DNA of 64,000 nucleotides from Rhodococcus coprophilus NBRC 100603 (lineage in GTDB: Bacteria; Actinomycetota; Actinomycetes; Mycobacteriales; Mycobacteriaceae). The stretch spans positions 186,001 to 250,000 of the forward strand of contig NZ_BDAM01000008.1 in assembly GCF_001895045.1 (NCBI RefSeq). The letters are read 5' to 3'. Below the pieces are notes generated by a model. That model searched no databases, was not told the origin of the DNA, and saw only the letters and a list, made by a program, of their open reading frames with translations. Both the position numbers and the translations under genes were made by a program. Positions 39,225 to 53,730 of the stretch are shown here, piece after piece. The first letter of the stretch is position 1, and the number at the start of each line of letters is the position of its first letter.

Positions 39225-42200
39225 TCACGCCGCCATCGTCGGTGCGATCGCCTCCATCTGTTCGAGCACCAACTTGATTGCCCCGGTCTGCTTGTCCGGC
39301 GGGTACTTGTAACGCGTCAGCAGTCGCTTCACCTGTGACCGCAACTTCGCTTTGACGTCCTCGCGCACCTTCCAGTCGGTCTTGACGTCACGCCGCATGA
39401 CGCCGACGAGTTCGCGCGCGATCTGGGCGAGAGTGTCCTCCCCCATCCCGTCCAGTGCCGATTCGTTCTGAGAGACAGCGTCGTAGAAGGACAATTCGTG
39501 ATCGCCGAGAGGAGGATCGAAGCGTTGCCCACGCTGCGACTCGGCCTGCACTTCTTTGGCAACCTCGACGAGCGCTGCGATCACCTCGGCCGAAGTGAGT
39601 TGACTGTTGGTGTACTTGATCATCAGTTCCTGCAGTTTCTGTGAGAACGCCCGCTGACGAACCAGGTTGTGGCGTGCCACCTTGCGGGATTCCTCAGAGA
39701 CCAGTTTACGCAGCGCCTCGATCGCCAGGACGGGGTTCTTCGCCTGCACGGCGCGATCGAGGAAGTCGGCATTGAGATCGGCGAGCGACGGCTTCGGCAT
39801 ACCTGCCGCGTCGTAGATGTCCAGTACCTCACCGGATTCCACCGATGCAGCCATGAGTGCGCGGAGAGCACGCTTGACATCCTCGGGCACCGCGGCGCCA
39901 CTCGCCTGCCTGTCTGCGGCGTCGAACTTGGCCATGTACACGCGCACTTCTTCGAAGAAGCGCGCATCGGCCGCAAGTGGGCGGACCTCCTCGTGTGTAC
40001 CGCAGATGGCCCACACGCGCGACAACTGTGACGCGTTCTCCCGGTATCGGGTTGCGAGCGTCTTCTGCCCTTCGCCGACCTTGTTCTCGGGGTTCTTCGG
40101 ATCGCGAAGGTAGGCAACGGTTGCCAGCACCGCGTCCAGCCATCCGCGTGGCCCCGGTGCCCGGCGGCGTTCGCGCCAGTCGAAACCGTGAAGCATGTTG
40201 CCCAGGACCGTCATGAGGTTCTTGACAGCGTCCACCGCTTCTTCGACAGGCCGGCCGAGAGGTTTGGTGGTGCGGTCCGACGCGGTGTACTCGGCCAGTG
40301 CATCCGCAAGATTGTCGGCGACCGGCGCGTAGGCGACGAGCAGACCGTCACTCTTGCCGCGGAAGGTGCGATTGACGCGGGCAAGCGTCTGCATCAGCAA
40401 CGCACCTTTGAGTGGACGGTCGAGATACAGCGTGTGAAGCGGGGGTGCGTCGAAACCGGTGAGCATCATGTCCTTGACGATCACCAGTTCGAGTTCGTCG
40501 TCGATGTCCTTGAGCCGCTTCTTGATTGCTGCGTTCTCGGAGTCGCGTCGCACATGATTGCTGACCGGCGGCCGGTCACTGGCGTCACCGGAATACACCA
40601 CCTTGATGCGGCCGGCGGAAAGATCGTCGGAATGCCAGTCGGGGCGAAGCTTGGTGATCTCGCCGTAGAGATTGGCGCAGATCTCCCGTGTCGCGCAGAC
40701 GATCATCGCTTTTCCGGGTGCAGTCGGGTTCTCCTCCGACCCCACGAACTTCGCCATCTGGGAGCGGCGATTCTCCCAGTGCGCGACGAGATCCTCCGCG
40801 AGCATCTGCAGCCTGGCCGGCGTGCCGTACACGGCGTTGATGACCGCCACGGACTTTTCGATGCGGGTGCGTTCGGTGTCGTCGAGACCGGCCGTGAGTT
40901 CGTCGGCCGACGCGTCGATCTGCTCCTCGGTGATCTCTCCCGCGAACGCCACCTTCACGAGACGGCTCTCGAAATGGACGGGCACGGTCGCTCCGTCGTC
41001 CACGGCGCGGGTGAGGTCGTAGATGTCGATGTAGTCACCGAACACGGCTCGCGTGTTGCGGTCCTCGAACGAGATCGGTGTTCCGGTGAAGGCGATGAGG
41101 GTGGCGTGCGGAAGCGCGTCGCGCAGGTGGCGCGCGTATCCGTCGAGATCGTCGTAGTGGCTGCGGTGCGCTTCGTCGACGACCACGATGATGTTGCGTC
41201 GTGCGGACAACTCGGGGTGGCTGAGCCCCGCTTCGCGTTCGTCGCGACTCTTCCCGAACTTCTGGAGGGTCGTGAAGTAGATGCCACCGGTGGTACGTCC
41301 GGAGAGTTCCTGGCGGAGTTCTTCTCGTCGGCGAATCTGTTTGGGCTGCTCGGGAAGCAGCTGCGAGCGGGCGAAGGTTTCGTAGAGTTGGCCGTCGAGT
41401 TCGTTGCGGTCCGTGATCACAACGATTGTCGGATTGGCGAGCGCTGGATGGCGGATCACCTGATTCGCATAGAGCTCCATCTCCATCGACTTTCCGGAGC
41501 CCTGCGTATGCCACACGACCCCGGCCTTGCCTCCGGAGCCCACGGCGACCACCGTGGATCCCACCGCTTTGGCAACGGCGAAGTACTGGTGCGGTTTGGC
41601 AATTCGCTTGACGAGGCCGTTCTCGCTCTCGTCGAACGCGGTGTAGTTGCGGAGAAGTTGCAGAAACCGCTCCTGGTTGAACAACCCGTACAGTGCGGTG
41701 TCGAGGGGATGGTGCTCGCCGCTGGGTTCGACGGGAGCACCGTCGTCGTCGACGTTCCATGGTGAGAAATGCTCGAAGGGCGTGAACGGGGTGCCGTAGG
41801 ACGCGGTGATCCCGTCCGACACCAACGCCATCACTGCGTATCGGAAGGCCAGAGGAAATTCGCGCAGGTAGGTCTGGAGCTGGGCATGGGCGTCGGTGAG
41901 GCTCGCGTACTGGCTGCCTGCGTTCTTCAGTTCCACGACGGCGACCGGCATACCGTTCATGTACAACACGAGATCGAAGCGACGCTCGTAGTCGCTGCGG
42001 ATCACGGTGACCTGGTTGGCGACGAACCAGTCGTTGTCGTCGGGCTCGACGGAAACGAGCCGGATGGTGGGGGTGACCTCGACGCCCGCGTCGTCGGTGT
42101 AGGAGATCTTGCGTAAACCTTCGGTCAGGTACTCGTGGACGGTCCGGTTCTCCGCGATGGCGTCGGTCGACCCGGCAGTCGCCACGAGTGCGACCGCATC

Positions 42201-42419
42201 GTCGACAGCGCCGGCAGGCAGTTTCGGATTCAGATTCACGATGGCCGCGCGCAAGCGTGAAGGGATGAGGAGATCGTCCCACGACGTGCGCTCACCCGAG
42301 CCGGGTGCGATCTCCGCACCGGGGATGTATCGCCATCCGAGCTCGCCCAACGTATCGAGGGCCATCTGCTCCCACGCCGATTCGGTGAGGCGGCCGGGGA
42401 ATTCCAAAACGTCTGCCAT
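39225..42419 (-). CDS. hsdR: Type I restriction enzyme, subunit R (HsdR)
   Basis: Motor and nuclease subunit of 1064 residues. The N-terminal PD-(D/E)XK nuclease has D149 (RRFDLVLY) and E163/K165 (VVELKNAG). The helicase core has Walker A TQGSGKS (305-311), DEAH (415-418) and FTGTPI. The C-terminal third is helical and should dock HsdM. It translocates DNA and cuts away from unmethylated target sites. The start is the ATG at 42419, 6 nt after TAAGTT, hence probably leaderless. The gene is 5.5 kb from hsdS/hsdM in the same direction, with unrelated genes between, and shares a palindrome with their promoter. Confidence 0.95.
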   Translation of the reverse strand: MADVLEFPGRLTESAWEQMALDTLGELGWRYIPGAEIAPGSGERTSWDDLLIPSRLRAAIVNLNPKLPAGAVDDAVALVATAGSTDAIAENRTVHEYLTEGLRKISYTDDAGVEVTPTIRLVSVEPDDNDWFVANQVTVIRSDYERRFDLVLYMNGMPVAVVELKNAGSQYASLTDAHAQLQTYLREFPLAFRYAVMALVSDGITASYGTPFTPFEHFSPWNVDDDGAPVEPSGEHHPLDTALYGLFNQERFLQLLRNYTAFDESENGLVKRIAKPHQYFAVAKAVGSTVVAVGSGGKAGVVWHTQGSGKSMEMELYANQVIRHPALANPTIVVITDRNELDGQLYETFARSQLLPEQPKQIRRREELRQELSGRTTGGIYFTTLQKFGKSRDEREAGLSHPELSARRNIIVVVDEAHRSHYDDLDGYARHLRDALPHATLIAFTGTPISFEDRNTRAVFGDYIDIYDLTRAVDDGATVPVHFESRLVKVAFAGEITEEQIDASADELTAGLDDTERTRIEKSVAVINAVYGTPARLQMLAEDLVAHWENRRSQMAKFVGSEENPTAPGKAMIVCATREICANLYGEITKLRPDWHSDDLSAGRIKVVYSGDASDRPPVSNHVRRDSENAAIKKRLKDIDDELELVIVKDMMLTGFDAPPLHTLYLDRPLKGALLMQTLARVNRTFRGKSDGLLVAYAPVADNLADALAEYTASDRTTKPLGRPVEEAVDAVKNLMTVLGNMLHGFDWRERRRAPGPRGWLDAVLATVAYLRDPKNPENKVGEGQKTLATRYRENASQLSRVWAICGTHEEVRPLAADARFFEEVRVYMAKFDAADRQASGAAVPEDVKRALRALMAASVESGEVLDIYDAAGMPKPSLADLNADFLDRAVQAKNPVLAIEALRKLVSEESRKVARHNLVRQRAFSQKLQELMIKYTNSQLTSAEVIAALVEVAKEVQAESQRGQRFDPPLGDHELSFYDAVSQNESALDGMGEDTLAQIARELVGVMRRDVKTDWKVREDVKAKLRSQVKRLLTRYKYPPDKQTGAIKLVLEQMEAIAPTMAA

Positions 42420-42425
42420 GCACAC

Positions 42426-42431
42426 AACTTA
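42426..42431 (-). promoter_or_regulatory. -10 box of hsdR
   Basis: TAAGTT on the minus strand, then GTGTGC and the hsdR ATG at 42419: a leaderless arrangement that supports this start over a GTG at 42425. Confidence 0.65.
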
Positions 42432-42463: not shown

Positions 42464-42481
42464 CGATAACAGGGGTTATCG
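42464..42481. promoter_or_regulatory. Palindromic operator upstream of hsdR
   Basis: CGATAAC-AGGG-GTTATCG, a perfect 7-bp inverted repeat with a 4-bp spacer, centred 54 bp upstream of the hsdR start. The same palindrome, with one mismatch, lies ahead of the hsdM operon at 52794-52811. It is likely the binding site of a regulator shared by both units. Confidence 0.7.
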
Positions 42482-45990: not shown

Positions 45991-46148
45991 TTGCATTCCT
46001 CCAACTCGTGCGCACTACGCGGTGCTAAGTGCCTGACGCCCACTAGTCGGATTCGAGCATTCGGTTGTTACACCCGGGCTCGGCAGAGCGGGGGTTGGTG
46101 TCGAACGAATCGTCGGGAGTGGTACCAGAACGCCGGGACGTCGAAGAA

Positions 46149-46189
46149 ATGGTGGGTTATTGCCCGGCTACCGGGCAATAACCCACCAT
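46149..46189 (-). terminator. Hairpin of repeat copy A
   Basis: Perfect 19-bp stem (ATGGTGGGTTATTGCCCGG arm) with loop CTA, identical to the hairpin after hsdS. In this copy it follows only a 41-codon hsdS remnant. Confidence 0.85.
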
Positions 46190-46206
46190 CTTTGCCAAAG
46201 CACTCG

Positions 46207-46337
46207 CTACAACACGTTTTCCACGACCCTCTCCGCGTCGCGCACGCGGAGTTCGCCGGACATCAGAGGTGGGAGGAGGGTATCGCGCATCGCGACGAGG
46301 CTCATCGATTCCGAATCCACAGATTCCTGTAGCTTAA
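46207..46337 (-). pseudogene. Remnant of hsdS (last 41 codons or so)
   Basis: Encodes KLQESVDSESMSLVAMRDTL and the rest of the HsdS C-terminus to the stop, identical in protein to the end of the intact hsdS at 47894. Sequence further upstream (46338 onward) is unrelated to hsdS. No start codon or ribosome-binding site of its own; the frame continues to 46470 by chance. Confidence 0.85.
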
Positions 46338-46754: not shown

Positions 46755-47696
46755 TCACCTTGTGCGTGACCAGGTCAGACCTTCGCGGAGCTCTGGTCGG
46801 TACTTCCCCTGTAGCAGGGATTCGTCCGAAGTCAGGACGGTGATCACATCACCTACCATCACTCCGATCGACGGCCACAACGCCTCGGATCCCCCCATGC
46901 TGGTGCTGAATTCACTGACGCAGCCATTCAGCTTGCCGTCACGAGTATCCACGACCAAAACAGCACCGGTGTTGTCTTCGGCAATCGGGATGAATTGCGG
47001 AAGAAAGCGATCCGCCGGTGATCCCGCTGGACGCTCGGCATCGGCTGCGGCTGGAGGGATCTCTGCGTCCTGTTCCTCTACGAACTCCTCCGCATCGAAG
47101 AACAACTGCTGGACCTCGAGTACGCGATCCAGACCCAACAGCTCGAATCCAGGGACCAATTGAAGTCCACCGCTTTGCTGCGTGAACAGCATCCGCACTT
47201 CGGGCGTCCACCGCGTTCCCGTCTCACCCTCCACTCTCGCAACGTCCTGCAGGGATGCACCACTGTCTATAGAGACATCTGCGACCAAGCCTCGCAACGT
47301 CTGCCACGCTGTTGCGAAATCCACAGACTCAGCCCTGCCTCGGGAAGACGCCTCAGCCCGCCACTTGACCAATCGTTCAGGTTGGCCCAACGGCCGCTGC
47401 TTCTGGGATTGACGATGCGCCCGCTCCAGGGCTGCCTGCTCTACCATCTCGTCGAGCGACAGCGATCCGTCGAGACCGATGATCCTGTAGTAGTCGTCCT
47501 CGTTGTCGAGCTGAAGAGTTGCATTGCTACCCAGGGTCCTGCCGAACTTCTCGGCCCAGGCCCGCGCACTGGCTAGGGCATCACCGATGAAATCCCGCAG
47601 TGTGCTTGGGGATGTGCTGCCCTCCAGTGTCACGAGTCGTTGTTGGGAAACACCTTCCTGGATGGTATTGATGGTGATCCGCCAGTTTGTTGTCAC
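46755..47696 (-). CDS. SMI1/KNR4 (SUKH)-like protein
   Basis: Protein of 313 residues (341 if read from 47780). The N-terminal 110 residues are an unassigned alpha/beta domain. The rest has the SUKH layout: W-containing helix (TAWQTLRGLVAD), GASLQDVARVEGETGTRWTPEVRMLF with its buried charge pair, then QFIPIAEDNTGAVLVVDTRDG and the closing hydrophobic strand. Bacterial SUKH proteins are often immunity partners of contact-dependent or polymorphic toxins; no toxin gene is visible nearby. The start GTG at 47696 has GGAG upstream. Flanked by 216-bp repeats, so it is probably mobile cargo. Confidence 0.68.
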   Translation of the reverse strand: MTTNWRITINTIQEGVSQQRLVTLEGSTSPSTLRDFIGDALASARAWAEKFGRTLGSNATLQLDNEDDYYRIIGLDGSLSLDEMVEQAALERAHRQSQKQRPLGQPERLVKWRAEASSRGRAESVDFATAWQTLRGLVADVSIDSGASLQDVARVEGETGTRWTPEVRMLFTQQSGGLQLVPGFELLGLDRVLEVQQLFFDAEEFVEEQDAEIPPAAADAERPAGSPADRFLPQFIPIAEDNTGAVLVVDTRDGKLNGCVSEFSTSMGGSEALWPSIGVMVGDVITVLTSDESLLQGKYRPELREGLTWSRTR

Positions 47697-47808
47697 GTGG
47701 TCGAGTCTCCTCAGCCGGCTGGAGGTGTTCCGGTGGCCGGCGACACGTAGAATGGGTCGTCCTTCAGGACACGATTCCAATGGTAGAACCAGCGAACGGA
47801 AGACCCTC

Positions 47809-48024
47809 GTACCAGAACGCCGGGACGTCGAAGAAATGGTGGGTTATTGCCCGGCTACCGGGCAATAACCCACCATCTTTGCCAAAGCACTCGCTACAAC
47901 ACGTTCTCCACGACCCTCTCCGCATCGCGCACGCGGAGTTCGCCGGACATCAGAGGTGGGAGGAGGGTATCGCGCATCGCGACGAGGCTCATCGATTCCG
48001 AATCCACAGATTCCTGTAGCTTAA
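47809..48024. repeat. 216-bp direct repeat, copy B (within and after hsdS)
   Basis: Copy B covers the last 131 bp of the intact hsdS and 85 bp beyond it. It matches 46122-46337 at 214 of 216 positions; the differences are T/C and G/A in the last codons of hsdS and are silent or near-silent. Confidence 0.93.
47836..47876 (-). terminator. Terminator of the hsd operon
   Basis: 19-bp perfect stem with a 3-nt loop, 18 bp after the hsdS stop. Reading out of hsdS it ends the hsdM-hsdS transcript before the SUKH-like gene. Confidence 0.85.
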
Positions 48025-49021
48025 GCAATGGTTGAACATCCGATGTAAACCTCTCGATCTCGCGGATCGAAGGCATCAAGACCTTTCTCTTTAGAGCCTG
48101 CGATCGATTCAATCCCGGTACGGCCGAATCTGAATTGAAGTCTGCCCAGTCGAGTGATCGCAGGAGGTAATAGCAATACTCCAACGTCACCCGCTCAGAA
48201 TTTGGTCGCACAAAGAATGTGGTATCGATGGGAAAACACGGCCCATTGGACCAGTGAACAGCACCAATGGTCCCCTTGCGTCCGACGATTACCGCCGGAC
48301 CTTCCAACAAGGACTCATTGTGCGAACCAACGACGCCGCCGCTGCCATAGACAGCACTCAGTCCATGAACCCTCTGCGAGGCAGGAAGAGCCTTCCCATA
48401 TTCGAGCGAAAGCACTTCACCCATAAGTTCCGCGGGTGAATTAACGTTATCAAGTCGTGCAAATAGAGACGTAGCCAATGCGTCAGCAGTTGTGGCCAAC
48501 TTGCGGTTTGCGGCGATCTTATCGTCGAGGGCGCCGAGGACCTCGGCGATCGCGCACTGCGTTTCAAGCCCCGGCAGTGGCGGAAGTTCGAAGGCTCTAA
48601 TGTCCGCGACGTTCAGATGCGCAACCGTCGAACCTGCTGCACGCTCCAGGACTCGCCTCTGCACTACCGGAGATCCAAGAAGGTAAAACAAGAAGGTCGA
48701 GTTTACGACTTCAGGATTCGGACGCATAAGAACTGTGCGCTGCCCTGGCGCCACATTCTCCTCAATCGGAATTCTCACGAGCGGTCCAACTGGAGCTTCG
48801 CGAGCGAAGAGTAAATCACCGTGGCGAGGCGCCAACCGACGGGTCCACTTCATGAATGTCTCTTTGGAAATTCGGCGAGCTTGAGAAAAGTCAATCACAC
48901 CGTCTCGCATTGCGGGCGTCCCGACGGCAAAAAAGTCGCCGGATTCGTCGATCGGAGCAGTTCTATGCTCGCAGTCGACGATATAATCGCAGGCTTCGTA
49001 CAGGGGCACCGACTCCTTCAT
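47894..49021 (-). CDS. hsdS: Type I restriction enzyme, specificity subunit (HsdS)
   Basis: Specificity subunit of 375 residues with two target recognition domains (about 1-150 and 200-335), each followed by a helical spacer (CAIAEVLGALDDKIAANRKL; SVDSESMSLVAMRDTLLPPL). Typical TRD strands GDLLFAREAPVGPLVRIP and GPAVIVGRKGTIGAVHW are present. It defines the bipartite DNA site methylated and guarded by the complex. It overlaps hsdM by ATGA. Codon use and base composition of this gene are visibly less GC-rich than those of hsdM, as expected for exchangeable TRDs. Confidence 0.94.
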   Translation of the reverse strand: MKESVPLYEACDYIVDCEHRTAPIDESGDFFAVGTPAMRDGVIDFSQARRISKETFMKWTRRLAPRHGDLLFAREAPVGPLVRIPIEENVAPGQRTVLMRPNPEVVNSTFLFYLLGSPVVQRRVLERAAGSTVAHLNVADIRAFELPPLPGLETQCAIAEVLGALDDKIAANRKLATTADALATSLFARLDNVNSPAELMGEVLSLEYGKALPASQRVHGLSAVYGSGGVVGSHNESLLEGPAVIVGRKGTIGAVHWSNGPCFPIDTTFFVRPNSERVTLEYCYYLLRSLDWADFNSDSAVPGLNRSQALKRKVLMPSIREIERFTSDVQPLLKLQESVDSESMSLVAMRDTLLPPLMSGELRVRDAERVVENVL

Positions 49022-50631
49022 CCCACCCTCCCCAACTGCTCACGCACAACAGCCTGGAGCCGGGTCGACTCGTCGAACTGCTCGAACAGTTCCTTCGTCA
49101 ACCGCGCAATCTTCTCCTCGATCGGCTCGCCGTCATCTTCGATCGCAGCCGCACCGACGTAGCGACCAGGGGTCAGCGCATAATCAGCCTCCTTGATCTC
49201 GGCGAGGGTCGCCGAATAGCAGAACCCCGCCTCATTCGCGTACTCGGCGCCCTTCGCGGATTCCGTTCCCCGCCAGGCATGGAACGTGCCGGCGATCTTC
49301 GCGATGTCGTCGTCCGACAACGCCCGCTCCGCACGATCGACCATGTAGCCGAGGTTGCGGGCGTCGATGAACAGCACCTGCCCACGACGGTCGATCGAAC
49401 CCTTCACGCCCGCCGACTTGTCTTTCGCGAAGAACCACGTGCACACCGGAATACCGGTGCTGCGGAACAACTGGGTCGGCAGTGCCACCATGCACGACAC
49501 CAGATCGGCCTCGACCAACCGCGCGCGGATGTCGCCCTCACCACCGGAGTTCGACGACATCGTTCCGTTCGCCATCACCACACCGGCACTGCCCTTTTCG
49601 GCAAGCTTCGAGATGATGTGCTGAATCCACGCATAGTTGGCGTTGCCTACCGGCGGGACACCGTACTTCCAGCGCTTGTCGTCCTCCCGGCGCGTCCAGT
49701 CCTTGATGTTGAACGGCGGGTTGGCCATCACGTAGTCGGCCAGGAGGTCCGGGTGCTTGTCTTGGGAGAACGTGTCTTCCCAACGGTCACCGAGTTGCGC
49801 GTTGATGCCGTGGATCGCGAGGTTCATCTTCGCCATCCGCCACGTGCGCTCGTTGTGTTCCTGGCCGTAGACAGCAATATCCGTCGCGTTGCCACCGTGG
49901 TGTTCGATGAACTTCTCGGCCTGGACGAACATGCCGCCCGAGCCACAGCACGGGTCGTACACGCGTCCGTTGTACGGCTCGAGCATCTCCACCAGCACGC
50001 GCACAACACCTGCGGGAGTGTAGAACTCGCCACCGCGCTTACCCTCCGCGCGGGCGAACTTCTCCAGGAAGTATTCGTACACCTCCCCCAGGAGGTCCCG
50101 GGCTCGGCGTGCGCCGTCACCGGTGAACCGGGTGTCGTTGAACAGATCGAGCAGCTCGCCGAGACGGCGCTGATCAATGTTGTCCTTGTTGAACATCGTC
50201 GGCAACGTGCCGGCGAGGGTGGGGTTTTCGTCCATCAATCCGCGCATGGCGGCGTCGATCAGCTGGCCGATGGTTCGGAATTCGACCCCGGACGATTCCT
50301 GGATGCCCTTTGCGTTCTGCGCAAGGTACTCCCACCGGGCTTCCTCCGGCACCCAGAAGACGGTGGAACCGAGGTATTCGTCGCGGTCGTCGATGAGCGA
50401 CGCGACACCTTCCTCATCCAGCCCGTCTGCGATCAACTCGGCTTCGAGTTGCCGGCGACGCTCGTCGAACGCGTCCGAGACGTACTTGAGGAACACCAAC
50501 CCGAGGATGACGTCCTTGTACTGGGACGCATCCATGGAGCCGCGCAGTTTGTCGGCGGCCTTCCACAGCGTGTCCTTCAGTTCCTTCATGGTCGACGGTG
50601 CTGTGTCCGTCGCCCTCTTCCTCGGTGGCAT
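49018..50631 (-). CDS. hsdM: Type I restriction enzyme, methyltransferase subunit (HsdM)
   Basis: N6-adenine methyltransferase subunit of 537 residues. The N-terminal helical domain (about 10-180) reads DNA methylation state. The SAM motif is DPCCGSGGM (226-234), the catalytic motif IV is NPPF (304-307), and GQEHNERTWRMAKMNL follows the family closely. It forms M2S with HsdS. The start at 50631 lies two bases after the stop of the upstream fusion-like protein, with GAGGAAGAG ahead, so the three genes form one operon. Confidence 0.95.
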   Translation of the reverse strand: MPPRKRATDTAPSTMKELKDTLWKAADKLRGSMDASQYKDVILGLVFLKYVSDAFDERRRQLEAELIADGLDEEGVASLIDDRDEYLGSTVFWVPEEARWEYLAQNAKGIQESSGVEFRTIGQLIDAAMRGLMDENPTLAGTLPTMFNKDNIDQRRLGELLDLFNDTRFTGDGARRARDLLGEVYEYFLEKFARAEGKRGGEFYTPAGVVRVLVEMLEPYNGRVYDPCCGSGGMFVQAEKFIEHHGGNATDIAVYGQEHNERTWRMAKMNLAIHGINAQLGDRWEDTFSQDKHPDLLADYVMANPPFNIKDWTRREDDKRWKYGVPPVGNANYAWIQHIISKLAEKGSAGVVMANGTMSSNSGGEGDIRARLVEADLVSCMVALPTQLFRSTGIPVCTWFFAKDKSAGVKGSIDRRGQVLFIDARNLGYMVDRAERALSDDDIAKIAGTFHAWRGTESAKGAEYANEAGFCYSATLAEIKEADYALTPGRYVGAAAIEDDGEPIEEKIARLTKELFEQFDESTRLQAVVREQLGRVG

Positions 50632-50633
50632 CT

Positions 50634-52703
50634 TCACTCTTCCTCTGGGACGTGCGGGTTGCGCGATGTGACGGACAGGACTCCGCGAGTCACGCCGTCG
50701 ATCATTGTGTCGGTCAGTTCGTTCACGCTGTCGAGCAGGTTCTGGGCTTCGCGGCGTCGCGCGTCGAGTTCCCTCAGGGCTTCGCGGATTGCATCGACGC
50801 GAGCCGGGGCGATCGCCGGGACGGTCCAATCCTTCCATCGCCGTCCGGAGCGAATCGCACCCGATGGCTTCTCCACCTCCGCGAGTTGCTTCAGGTGCCG
50901 GGCGATCACTTCGGGTATGAGACCGTCGGCATCCGCGTTGCGAACCCGCAGCACCCGGGCCGGAGCGAGGACGAGGGAACCGCCGTCGCTGTCGACGGCG
51001 ATTCCGAACCGCGGCGACGTGCAGAAAACGATGTCGCCAGGCTTCGTGCGTCGGCTGCCCGAGTATCTCTCGGCATGCACCAGTCGGTCGATCCCTCGGT
51101 CGCCGATTACTCTCTCCCCCAGCAATTCTGCGGGCCCTATCACCCGCACCTGTCCGCCGGTTTCGATATCGTCCGGGTCGACCCGAGTACCGGGAAGCAG
51201 CGCGAGCTTCCGCTGCGAGACGAGTTCGCCCGCGGTGGGCAGGACGGGCGCTTCCGAACGGTGGTGGGCGACCGCCACACGAAGGTCACCCCTGAGACTC
51301 TGTGCGTGGCGGTTCGCATCGTCGACCAGCGACGTCACCCGGCTTGCGACGTCGACTCCGCGCCCGGCGGGTCGCGCGGATCTGGTTGCGACGAGCCCTC
51401 GGGCGGTGTCGGCCAGCAGATCCGCGGTCCGGTGGACCGCTCCGAAGTGAAATGCGTGCGCGCGAACCGAATCCGCTGTGCCCATCGATGCGACGACATC
51501 GGACACGACACCGTCGATCGCAGCGTTGTCGAGAGCCCGATGGCTGATGTCGGCGAGCACCGTCCAGCGGTCCGTGGGTGCGATGCGCACGTCGGCCGCG
51601 CCCAGCACCCATAAGGCCATCGACGTTCCGGGCTTCGTCACGAGCAGGCCCTCCGGAAGCCGGATCGCCGCGCAGAGGCGGCCGGACTGCACAATCCCAG
51701 ACCGGATCGACAGCGTGTGGCGGTCGGGCAGCGGATCGACGAGGACCGCTGCCGGCGCGATCACCACGGCGTAATGCTCGCCGCTCATCTGCACGGTGAT
51801 GTTGTCGATCTCGGTGAGCACCTCGGCCGGCGAGGCCCCCAGCGTTGACGGCGACGGGTACTGGGTGAGGAACAGAGCGAGCCGATCGATCGAGAAATCT
51901 GCGTCGAACCCTTCGGCGGGTGCCGGGTGGCGTCGCCACCGATGCACCGCGAGACGACGACGCGCGAGCCTCGCAGACGGGGTGTCGGCTCGTCCGGTGA
52001 TCGCGATCGGCTCGGTGTCTTCGGACAGTTCCTTCCGCAGGGCGACGAACAGATCGCTGCCGTCGACCGACGGGTCGACGAAGAACGCGCGGTCGTCGCA
52101 CACCAGCGCCGTCGCCACCCGGGTGCACAACTCGATGGCACCGCCGGCGAGCGTCGAAGCAGCCAACTCCCGCATCGGAATCCGAAAACGCTGCGCCATC
52201 AAGGCTTCGAAGGCCCGCTCGGTGGTGTACGCAGCGTCGGCCATGCGGTCGGCGTGCCGGGCATAGGTGACGAGATACCCGCCGAGGGCCTCGAGTTCGC
52301 GATACAGATACGCGTCGTCGGGATCGACGTCGTCGGCCTCGTCGAGAATGTCGTCGTGGTCGAGATCGGTCAGCGGGATTCCGAGCTGCGATTTGAGGCA
52401 CAGTAGCGCCGTGAGGCCCGTGAGCGCTGCGTCAGGGCCGGCGCCGGTGGGATGGTCGAGCGCGGCATGGATCGCCACGTCTTCGGCGAGGGTGTCGCTG
52501 TTGCCGAGCTTTCGCTCTCGAAGCCAGCCGACCACGTCGTCGGCAGCAAACTTCTCCTGTTGGGCGTCGATGCGGACGGGTTCCGGAAAGGGCCGGTCGG
52601 TGCCGGCGTAGCGGCTACGCCACACGGAGACGACCGGTCTTTTCACTCCCGCGAGCGATGCGATATCGCTCTTGGTGAGGAGGAGGGCCGGTTCGTCGGT
52701 CAC
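50634..52703 (-). CDS. HTH / degenerate N6-MTase / HsdS-like TRD protein, first gene of the hsd operon
   Basis: Protein of 689 residues, not a standard type I subunit. Residues 9-65 resemble an excisionase/MerR-like helix-turn-helix (TKSDIASLAGVKRPVVSVW). Residues about 170-370 follow HsdM in order but with broken motifs: DPSVDGSD (210-217) where DPxCGSGG is expected, the GRADTPSARLARRRLAVH helix, and QYPSPS (281-286) in place of NPPF. Residues about 490-635 resemble a single HsdS TRD (GDIVFCTSPRFGIAVDSD), then a coiled-coil spacer (REALRELDARRREAQNLL). It should bind DNA and perhaps HsdM but not methylate. The GTG start follows GGAAGGG; the stop is 2 nt before hsdM. It may be a regulator of the shared palindrome, or an accessory recognition subunit. 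The architecture is inferred by eye. Confidence 0.75.
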   Translation of the reverse strand: MTDEPALLLTKSDIASLAGVKRPVVSVWRSRYAGTDRPFPEPVRIDAQQEKFAADDVVGWLRERKLGNSDTLAEDVAIHAALDHPTGAGPDAALTGLTALLCLKSQLGIPLTDLDHDDILDEADDVDPDDAYLYRELEALGGYLVTYARHADRMADAAYTTERAFEALMAQRFRIPMRELAASTLAGGAIELCTRVATALVCDDRAFFVDPSVDGSDLFVALRKELSEDTEPIAITGRADTPSARLARRRLAVHRWRRHPAPAEGFDADFSIDRLALFLTQYPSPSTLGASPAEVLTEIDNITVQMSGEHYAVVIAPAAVLVDPLPDRHTLSIRSGIVQSGRLCAAIRLPEGLLVTKPGTSMALWVLGAADVRIAPTDRWTVLADISHRALDNAAIDGVVSDVVASMGTADSVRAHAFHFGAVHRTADLLADTARGLVATRSARPAGRGVDVASRVTSLVDDANRHAQSLRGDLRVAVAHHRSEAPVLPTAGELVSQRKLALLPGTRVDPDDIETGGQVRVIGPAELLGERVIGDRGIDRLVHAERYSGSRRTKPGDIVFCTSPRFGIAVDSDGGSLVLAPARVLRVRNADADGLIPEVIARHLKQLAEVEKPSGAIRSGRRWKDWTVPAIAPARVDAIREALRELDARRREAQNLLDSVNELTDTMIDGVTRGVLSVTSRNPHVPEEE

Positions 52704-52793
52704 GTTGCAGGCCCTTCCAGTAGTTGCGGCAGCACTCCGCCGAGTTCGTTCCAAGAATCTATCGGTGCGATCGGACACGAACATTACGCATTG

Positions 52794-52811
52794 CGATAAC
52801 CCCCATTATCG
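52794..52811. promoter_or_regulatory. Palindromic operator between the hsd operon and RNase H-like gene
   Basis: CGATAAC-CCCC-ATTATCG, matching the hsdR palindrome with one mismatch. It lies 91 bp upstream of the hsd operon GTG and 71 bp upstream of the divergent RNase H-like ATG. A -10 candidate TAATGT (52786 to 52781) on the minus strand would place the palindrome over the -35 region. Confidence 0.7.
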
Positions 52812-52881
52812 GGGTATTGCTCGCCCTCCTCCGCTGGTCCCGCGCACGATGACGGCAGCCGATCACGAGGAGGAACACCAC

Positions 52882-53730
52882 ATGCTCGCCGCCATCCACA
52901 TCCGCCAGATCCACGCCGGTCCCAAGCCGATGACCTGTGCTGCACTCGCCACCGACACCGATTCGGCACTGTTCCTCCGGGAGGGCCACGACCAGACCGA
53001 CCGGAGTCTGGCCGGCCTCGAAGCCTTCGCCGCCCTGTACGAGCAGGCGAAGTGTTCTCCGGTTCGGCTCCATATCTCGGATGCCGGTCTCCGCAGCACC
53101 CTCGAAGCGGTATCGGACTCCTTCCCCGCCGTCGACTTCGTCGCCACCCCGTTCGGCCCGCTCGGCACTCTTCTGCGCCGGGCGTCCGACACCATCGGCG
53201 CACACGTCGTCACCCTCGCCGCCGAAGAAGAGGCGCGGCGTGACACCGAACGCGCCCAGCTTCCGCCCCTGGCTGTTGCCACCGATGCCTCCAAGGCCAG
53301 GAGATTTCGGGGAACCGGTCTCGGCTGCGTTTCCGAGAAGGGCGTCCACCGGATGCTCATGGCGCCCGACGCGCGCTCGATCCTGGAGGGCGAACTGCTC
53401 GCCATCGAGATGGCCACGACAAAGTTCCCCGACCGCGACCTGCACATCCTCACCGACAGCCGCCTCGCGATCGCTTGCCTCGCAGGCACATACAAGGGAC
53501 GGCCCGCTGTTTCCGGGGTAGTCGACCGCATCCACCGCTCGATTCAGGGTCGATCGGTGCGATTCGACTGGGTGCGCGGTCACGACGGACACCCGCTCAA
53601 CGAAGCCGCACACCGGCTCGCGGTAGCGGCACGGCGTTGCTACGACGCGAAGGTTTCGCCCGCAGTGGCAGCAGAGATCGCGAGAAACATCGTTGCGTCG
53701 CTCGACGAATCGCGCACGCTATCAGCATGA
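52882..53730 (+). CDS. RNase H-like domain protein
   Basis: Protein of 282 residues. The N-terminal 115 residues resemble no family I know. The C-terminal 150 residues are an RNase HI fold: first Asp in AVATDAS, Glu in EGELLAIE, second Asp in LTDSR and WVRGHDGHPLNEAAHRLA, where the usual fourth Asp is His. The enzyme would cut RNA in RNA-DNA hybrids; loss of the fourth carboxylate need not abolish activity. GAGGAGG at 9 nt supports this start over an ATG at 52849. Divergent from the hsd operon, sharing its palindrome, so possibly regulated with it. Confidence 0.75.
   Translation: MLAAIHIRQIHAGPKPMTCAALATDTDSALFLREGHDQTDRSLAGLEAFAALYEQAKCSPVRLHISDAGLRSTLEAVSDSFPAVDFVATPFGPLGTLLRRASDTIGAHVVTLAAEEEARRDTERAQLPPLAVATDASKARRFRGTGLGCVSEKGVHRMLMAPDARSILEGELLAIEMATTKFPDRDLHILTDSRLAIACLAGTYKGRPAVSGVVDRIHRSIQGRSVRFDWVRGHDGHPLNEAAHRLAVAARRCYDAKVSPAVAAEIARNIVASLDESRTLSA

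Follow-up and report, generated by a model that had tools for sequence, protein, structure and literature searches.

A methyltransferase-derived protein predicted to act as a dedicated transcriptional controller of a type I R-M system

Type II R-M systems include HTH-fused methyltransferases that autorepress, as well as small C proteins, according to a review (PMC12707154) that reports little on the regulation of type I systems. For a type I island of Escherichia coli, a 2025 publication (PMC12255303) describes RptR, a 9-kDa, single-domain repressor with TAGCTA repeats over the -10. Nothing like the protein analyzed here was found in searches of open-licence PMC papers, in agreement with the initial annotation of this DNA, which knew of no type I system characterised as having a subunit of this kind; RptR is a different, small regulator. 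The protein, encoded by a gene here called X, consists of an HTH, a dead HsdM-like methyltransferase and a single HsdS-like TRD. From its sequence and that of its relatives, X is quite probably a dedicated, methyltransferase-derived transcriptional controller of its own type I R-M system, with predicted binding to an operator.

The window, a 64,000-nucleotide stretch of DNA, belongs to a 4.5-Mb genome, and the named relatives used for comparison are Rhodococcus. Gene X is located on the minus strand at 50634..52703 and encodes 689 residues, with a GTG start at 52703 and the stop codon at 50634. Only 2 nt separate this stop from the ATG of hsdM (50631) on the same strand, and the coordinates confirm the earlier description of X as adjoining hsdM and heading a type I R-M operon. 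The hsdM gene (49018..50631) encodes HsdM_N and N6_Mtase domains, hsdS (47894..49021) encodes two TRDs, and hsdR (39225..42419, with the ATG at 42419 preferred) lies about 5.5 kb beyond hsdS. All three have the minus-strand orientation, and their assignments come from Pfam, PADLOC and NCBIfam. An RNase H-family gene (52672-53730, plus strand) diverges from X; it is found beside X in most same-genus loci, and was not seen in genome G010. A 216-nt direct repeat (99%; 46122-46337 and 47809-48024) covers the 3′ end of hsdS and a GC-rich palindrome and flanks a 341-aa gene, and an SMI1/KNR4 (SUKH-1) family gene (46755-47780, minus strand) is located between hsdS and the duplicated hsdS 3′ end. SMI1/KNR4 (SUKH-1) proteins are often immunity-type.

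Compared alone with the Pfam, PADLOC and NCBIfam family models, X has zero matches at E ≤ 1, and Pfam detects no HTH in X itself. Structure models and profile comparison nevertheless support the order HTH, HsdM-like, half-HsdS-like for its domains, all on the minus strand. The modelled winged HTH (52509..52682; residues ~8–65) has helices at residues 11–18 and 22–31 and strands at 44–46 and 49–53, with VKRPVVSVW as its recognition helix; among the 37 X members, HTH families are matched by two proteins for MerR_1, one for HTH_17 and one for an AsnC-type HTH, the protein of the window not being one of these. The HsdM-like fold (51372..52502; residues 68–444) is made up, as in HsdM, of a helical N-domain and a methyltransferase domain, and carries DPSVDGSD (52053..52076; residues 210–217) as a ruined motif I and QYPSPS (51846..51863; residues 281–286) as a ruined motif IV. 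A single TRD and a long helix, resembling half an HsdS, occupy residues ~485–680 (50664..51251); the TRD is followed by the conserved helix, as in type I HsdS, and no second TRD, such as a two-TRD HsdS has, is present in the structure models. The initial annotation had read the same domain sequence (HTH, then HsdM-like domain, then TRD plus spacer) and the same two ruined motifs from the DNA, and both observations hold; the neighbouring HsdM keeps its motifs intact.

The association of X with hsdM is close. Among 101 relatives, 15 genomes have a match to X, and in 12 of these the match extends over the greater part of X. The 12 are the own genome, seven same-genus genomes, G038 and G042, together with G066 and G047, which are more distant. 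hsdM is directly next in each of them; the remaining three matches are confined to the HTH region and belong to intact-type proteins. An order-wide search of 397 genomes found, in 33 of them, 34 HsdM matches with at least 61% identity over nearly the full length, and X is upstream of hsdM in 31 of the 34. These 31 include G415 and G419, where X and hsdM are parted by an insert of 2.4–3.1 kb that carries a transposase-like gene in G419; the exceptions are G260 and G110, with an HsdS-like gene in the X slot, and a single copy in G122 that is truncated where the contig ends. All loci of the other 15 HsdM matches from the order-wide search were fetched, and no separate X was found there. Distances between X proteins and between HsdM proteins are correlated over 28 genomes (Mantel r 0.82, 0/2000 permutations). 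A phylum-wide search of 396 genomes added four X matches at E ≤ 1e-40; the helix of one, L207, is of the intact type. Start codons of relatives were chosen mechanically, and the X of L091, masked by an overlapping ORF, was taken from L015.

Upstream of X is a palindrome (operator 1), GATAATGGGGGTTATC in X orientation (52795..52810, minus strand), located 33 nt from a predicted -10 box, TAGATT (52756..52761, minus strand), of the X-hsdM-hsdS promoter. Alignment of the DNA upstream of X from ten loci revealed one conserved block, GATAAYnGGGGWTATC (GATAG once), in otherwise little conserved sequence, and TAnnnT is found at 33 nt from the operator in the ten nearest loci (10/10). A TGATAA-N5/6-TTATCA palindrome with at most two mismatches precedes 35 of 39 X operons, compared with 25/7800 mononucleotide shuffles. 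TAnnnT is placed 31–36 nt from the best site in 31 of the 39 operons and is lacking there in eight, and the two features occur together in 29/39 against 1/7800 shuffles. This count takes in G243 and G299, in which another gene stands before X, with the palindrome ahead of it; both were scored upstream of this additional gene. A related gene is found ahead of X in two genomes (L103, 12002-12640; L100, 5861-6694), again with the operator upstream of it, and Pfam gave no match for the protein from L103. The -35 regions are weak, with a mean match of 2.7 of 6 in 31 promoters and a background of 2.3. In two members that came to light once the motif had been defined, the site is 33 nt (L204) and 32 nt (L205) from a -10. 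Of the four phylum-wide finds, L206 (genome G681) has the GATAG form of the site and an HTH split over two frames, and at L207 an operator was looked for and none was found.

A second copy of the palindrome (operator 2), GATAACCCCTGTTATC in hsdR orientation (42465..42480, minus strand), lies upstream of hsdR, again 33 nt from a predicted -10 box, TAAGTT (42426..42431, minus strand), with the ATG 6 nt further. Wherever hsdR forms a separate unit, the operator is present (12/12: G000, G003, G005, G009, G010, G011, G012, G013, G015, G017, G038 and G042). Its distance from the -10 is 33–35 nt in ten of these genomes, and 84 nt in G003 and 110 nt in G038, with neither displacement a clean multiple of the helical turn. 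The alignment of G010 starts inside hsdR, and its operator was taken from the pattern-site search; G016, which has only an hsdR fragment (residues 365–1066), was left out of the count. G005 and G011, both draft assemblies (G005 being 75% complete), have hsdR with an operator and no X or HsdM match. In the two genomes with X and hsdM split (G415 and G419), hsdM has an operator copy of its own (2/2), with the 5-bp spacer that the X operator of these genomes also has, and with a -10 box 33 nt away. The operator is absent from 15 of 15 hsdM loci that lack X, with just ~0.8 kb visible upstream of hsdM in one of them (L208), from hsdR genes that directly follow X-hsdM-hsdS on the same strand (G047 and G066), and from the hsdR of X-less systems (G070 and the second G038 match). 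At L099 and L101, hsdM genes of this subfamily have an HsdS-like gene replacing X; L099 is without an operator, and L101 has one two-mismatch match of unlike sequence.

A strict form of the pattern gave 30 sites in 17 of the 101 genomes, and a reversed control gave three. Ten of the 30 sites are before X, eight before hsdR, and 12 elsewhere. The own genome contains exactly two strict-pattern sites, before X and before hsdR, and a relaxed pattern with up to two mismatches returned the same two sites only in the window, where 0.17 are expected. Upstream of 414 ORFs from twenty loci (every ORF of at least 200 aa in L086–L105, with X, hsdM and hsdR included), 38 matches with at most two mismatches were obtained; by reading of the list, all but one (L088) are the sites of X, hsdM or hsdR, picked up either from the genes themselves or from ORFs that adjoin or overlap them. 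Perfect palindromes number 31 in the 397 genomes of the order, 11 of them at X operons and 20 elsewhere. Six of the strict sites away from X and hsdR (L109, L110, L111, L115, L118 and L131, all in same-genus genomes) are GATAATCGGGGTTATC, and since some of them share flanks (L109 and L111), these six may be a repeat element; six more are at L106, L107, L112, L119, L127 and L128. A mobile-repeat origin was rejected for the operator at X and hsdR, since each transcription unit there has a single copy, at a distance that is mostly constant, even in genera that have diverged.

In the sequences compared, the operator and the recognition helix of X change together. Three of the four members with a changed operator (L044, L045, L050 and L053) have Lys22, with Gln or Asp at position 23 in two, and Arg22 is invariant in the other 33 X members. 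The palindrome is a different one in L044, L045 and L050, and the site of L053 is one base off per arm; these sites were identified post hoc. L044 and L045 are alike in both helix and site, such that these represent about three independent cases. Among divergent pairs of the other 33 members, conservation is highest in the recognition helix (0.68, versus 0.26–0.35 for the methyltransferase, TRD and C-helix), and in the changed-operator members the loss of identity is limited to the HTH and is sharpest in the recognition helix (from 0.68 to 0.52). The GATAA site is absent from the promoters of three intact relatives (genes of L021–L023).

Compared with the known systems, X would share with regulatory type II methyltransferases (PMC12707154) an N-terminal HTH on a methyltransferase and a binding site upstream of its own gene, both HTH and operator being predicted from sequence in the case of X. 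These enzymes are active methyltransferases, whereas X, judged by motif, is not; moreover, its system is type I, a half-HsdS is present, and its predicted operator, placed ahead of the promoter, recurs before hsdR. C proteins of type II systems are likewise dedicated regulators with an operator before their own gene and the endonuclease gene, an arrangement that the predicted operators before X and hsdR reproduce. Unlike these small stand-alone HTH proteins, X is a 689-residue protein derived from a methyltransferase, with HsdM and HsdS folds. RptR resembles X in being a dedicated regulator encoded by the first gene of a type I R-M operon, but X is large, its predicted fold and predicted operator differ, and it is not a protein of the RptR type.

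By simple patterns, motif IV is missing from 35 of the 37 X proteins, several of which have lost it outright, and motif I is missing from 31; X of the window has neither the DPxCGSG nor the NPPF of an active HsdM. The HsdM proteins adjoining X have both motifs in 28/28 genomes, a count in which the presence of motifs I and IV was itself the criterion for choosing the HsdM frame, with one frame obtained per genome. The motif losses support, on sequence grounds, the earlier description of X as catalytically dead, and it is very improbable that X still methylates using unusual motifs, even though L055, the only one of the 37 members with both motifs, would be compatible with it. X is kept under purifying selection, including its dead methyltransferase domain, with dN/dS values of 0.15–0.23 for X (four pairs) and 0.10–0.16 for this domain alone. 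Such a protein could also be a dead M-S subunit of the restriction complex that takes the place of one HsdM or half an HsdS, changing the choice of target or preventing cleavage. The modelled HsdM and half-HsdS folds, the M1M2S complexes present in the PDB (PacII entries) and the conserved gene neighbours of X fit such a role, which is nonetheless unlikely: HsdS already has two TRDs, and the operators and their covariation with the HTH would be left unexplained. The TRDs themselves behave differently. In ten loci, TRD1 and TRD2 of HsdS have mean pairwise identities of 17% and 15%, with isolated pairs at up to 84–85% that point to TRD swaps, whereas the X TRD has a mean of 57.5% (pairwise 45–86%) and tracks ancestry; the plainest case is G017 versus G015, with 97% identity for HsdM, 86% for the X TRD, and 14% and 10% for the HsdS TRDs. 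Free swapping of HsdS TRDs even between near relatives, set against an X TRD that follows ancestry, argues against X reading the HsdS target, and the proposal of the initial annotation that X may compete with or augment HsdS is not supported. Specificity switching through the extra TRD of X was rejected on the same comparison.

The operator might instead be read by the TRD of X. A bipartite palindrome is the expected target of a half-HsdS dimer, and GATAA-N6-TTATC has this form; however, the TRDs diverge to a mean identity of 0.35 while the operator is constant, and at the odd operators the change sits in the HTH and most sharply in its recognition helix, which makes this reading rather improbable. 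Binding of the palindrome by another host regulator, with X merely travelling along, would account for the similar sites elsewhere in some genomes and is compatible with binding by X being a prediction, but is quite improbable given that the site follows X across genera, is missing from every X-less hsdM locus, and changes along with the recognition helix of X. A more serious possibility, though the less favoured one, is that X represses both promoters, by an autorepression relieved by infection or HsdM. Type II HTH-methyltransferases autorepress (PMC12707154) and RptR represses its type I island (PMC12255303); the operator here is not over the -10 but upstream of the -35 region, at ~-46 to -61 from starts that are inferred. 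Since it ends ~33 nt above the -10 and upstream of weak -35 regions, activation is somewhat favoured over repression, a preference drawn from operator position, which by itself is no proof of activation.

The reading of X as a DNA-reading controller of the system, which the initial annotation had also offered, is well supported: one operator is common to the transcription units of X, hsdM and hsdR, and it covaries with the HTH. Its origin may be reflected in the intact HTH-N6_MTase-TRD proteins of L160, L161, L164 and L167, which share the domain order and gene slot of X and match it by profile over the full length. HsdM (by Pfam) directly follows the intact protein in all four, and an HsdS after that HsdM was identified in three of the four loci (L160 and L167 by Pfam, L161 by BLAST). 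In contrast to X, they have strong N6_Mtase matches (E values of 1.7e-33 for L161, 1.1e-31 for L160, 5.5e-32 for L164 and 6e-40 for L167), and intact relatives such as L160 and L164 have the helix VGRAAVSNW instead of VKRPVVSVW. L160, L161, L164 and L167 represent a four-part type I arrangement whose first protein is an apparently active HTH-N6_MTase-TRD. A GTCAA-type palindrome is found near the start codon of the intact relatives L161–L165, L169 and L171, often together with the helix VGRAAVSNW or a close variant, suggesting self-regulation. The likely ancestor is a self-regulating HTH-N6-methyltransferase-TRD protein heading an hsdMS operon, and other genomes still have intact relatives immediately ahead of HsdM genes. 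On the X branch, the catalytic motifs would then have degenerated, with purifying selection preserving the fold.

From the anatomy, linkage, operator distribution and covariation computed here, we infer the binding, direction and signal of control by X as follows. Each subunit of an X dimer would place the recognition helix of its N-terminal winged HTH in one of the two GATAA half-sites of TGATAA-N6-TTATCA; the half-sites are 11 bp apart from centre to centre, about one turn. X would thereby control the X-hsdM-hsdS promoter, its own gene included, and the separate hsdR promoter. The dead methyltransferase/half-HsdS body is probably a dimerisation scaffold; that it also acts as an input, for example by sensing free HsdM, is a guess. 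Dimer scaffold, HsdM sensing and second-site reading are thus the candidate roles of the retained methyltransferase and TRD. Together, these data suggest a dead methyltransferase turned gene switch that would recognise one short DNA site and control the genes of its own R-M system, a defence against viruses.

A broader and decidedly tentative view is that a branch of type I methyltransferases became transcription factors. One operator would be read by a pseudo-methyltransferase carrying a half-HsdS, which would switch on hsdMS and hsdR together, its M/S-like body measuring free HsdM or the methylation state of the DNA. If X does sense in this way, restriction would not be expressed before protection. 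The family would also document the conversion of an enzyme into a regulator with surviving intermediates, such as L055, whose operon has the same operator although both motifs are retained; members with intact, partly decayed or completely decayed motifs, all occupying one gene slot, would form a clear series from enzyme to transcription factor. X is therefore a candidate dedicated type I controller that comes with a predicted operator, a predicted regulon (X-hsdM-hsdS and hsdR) and natural variants of operator and helix.
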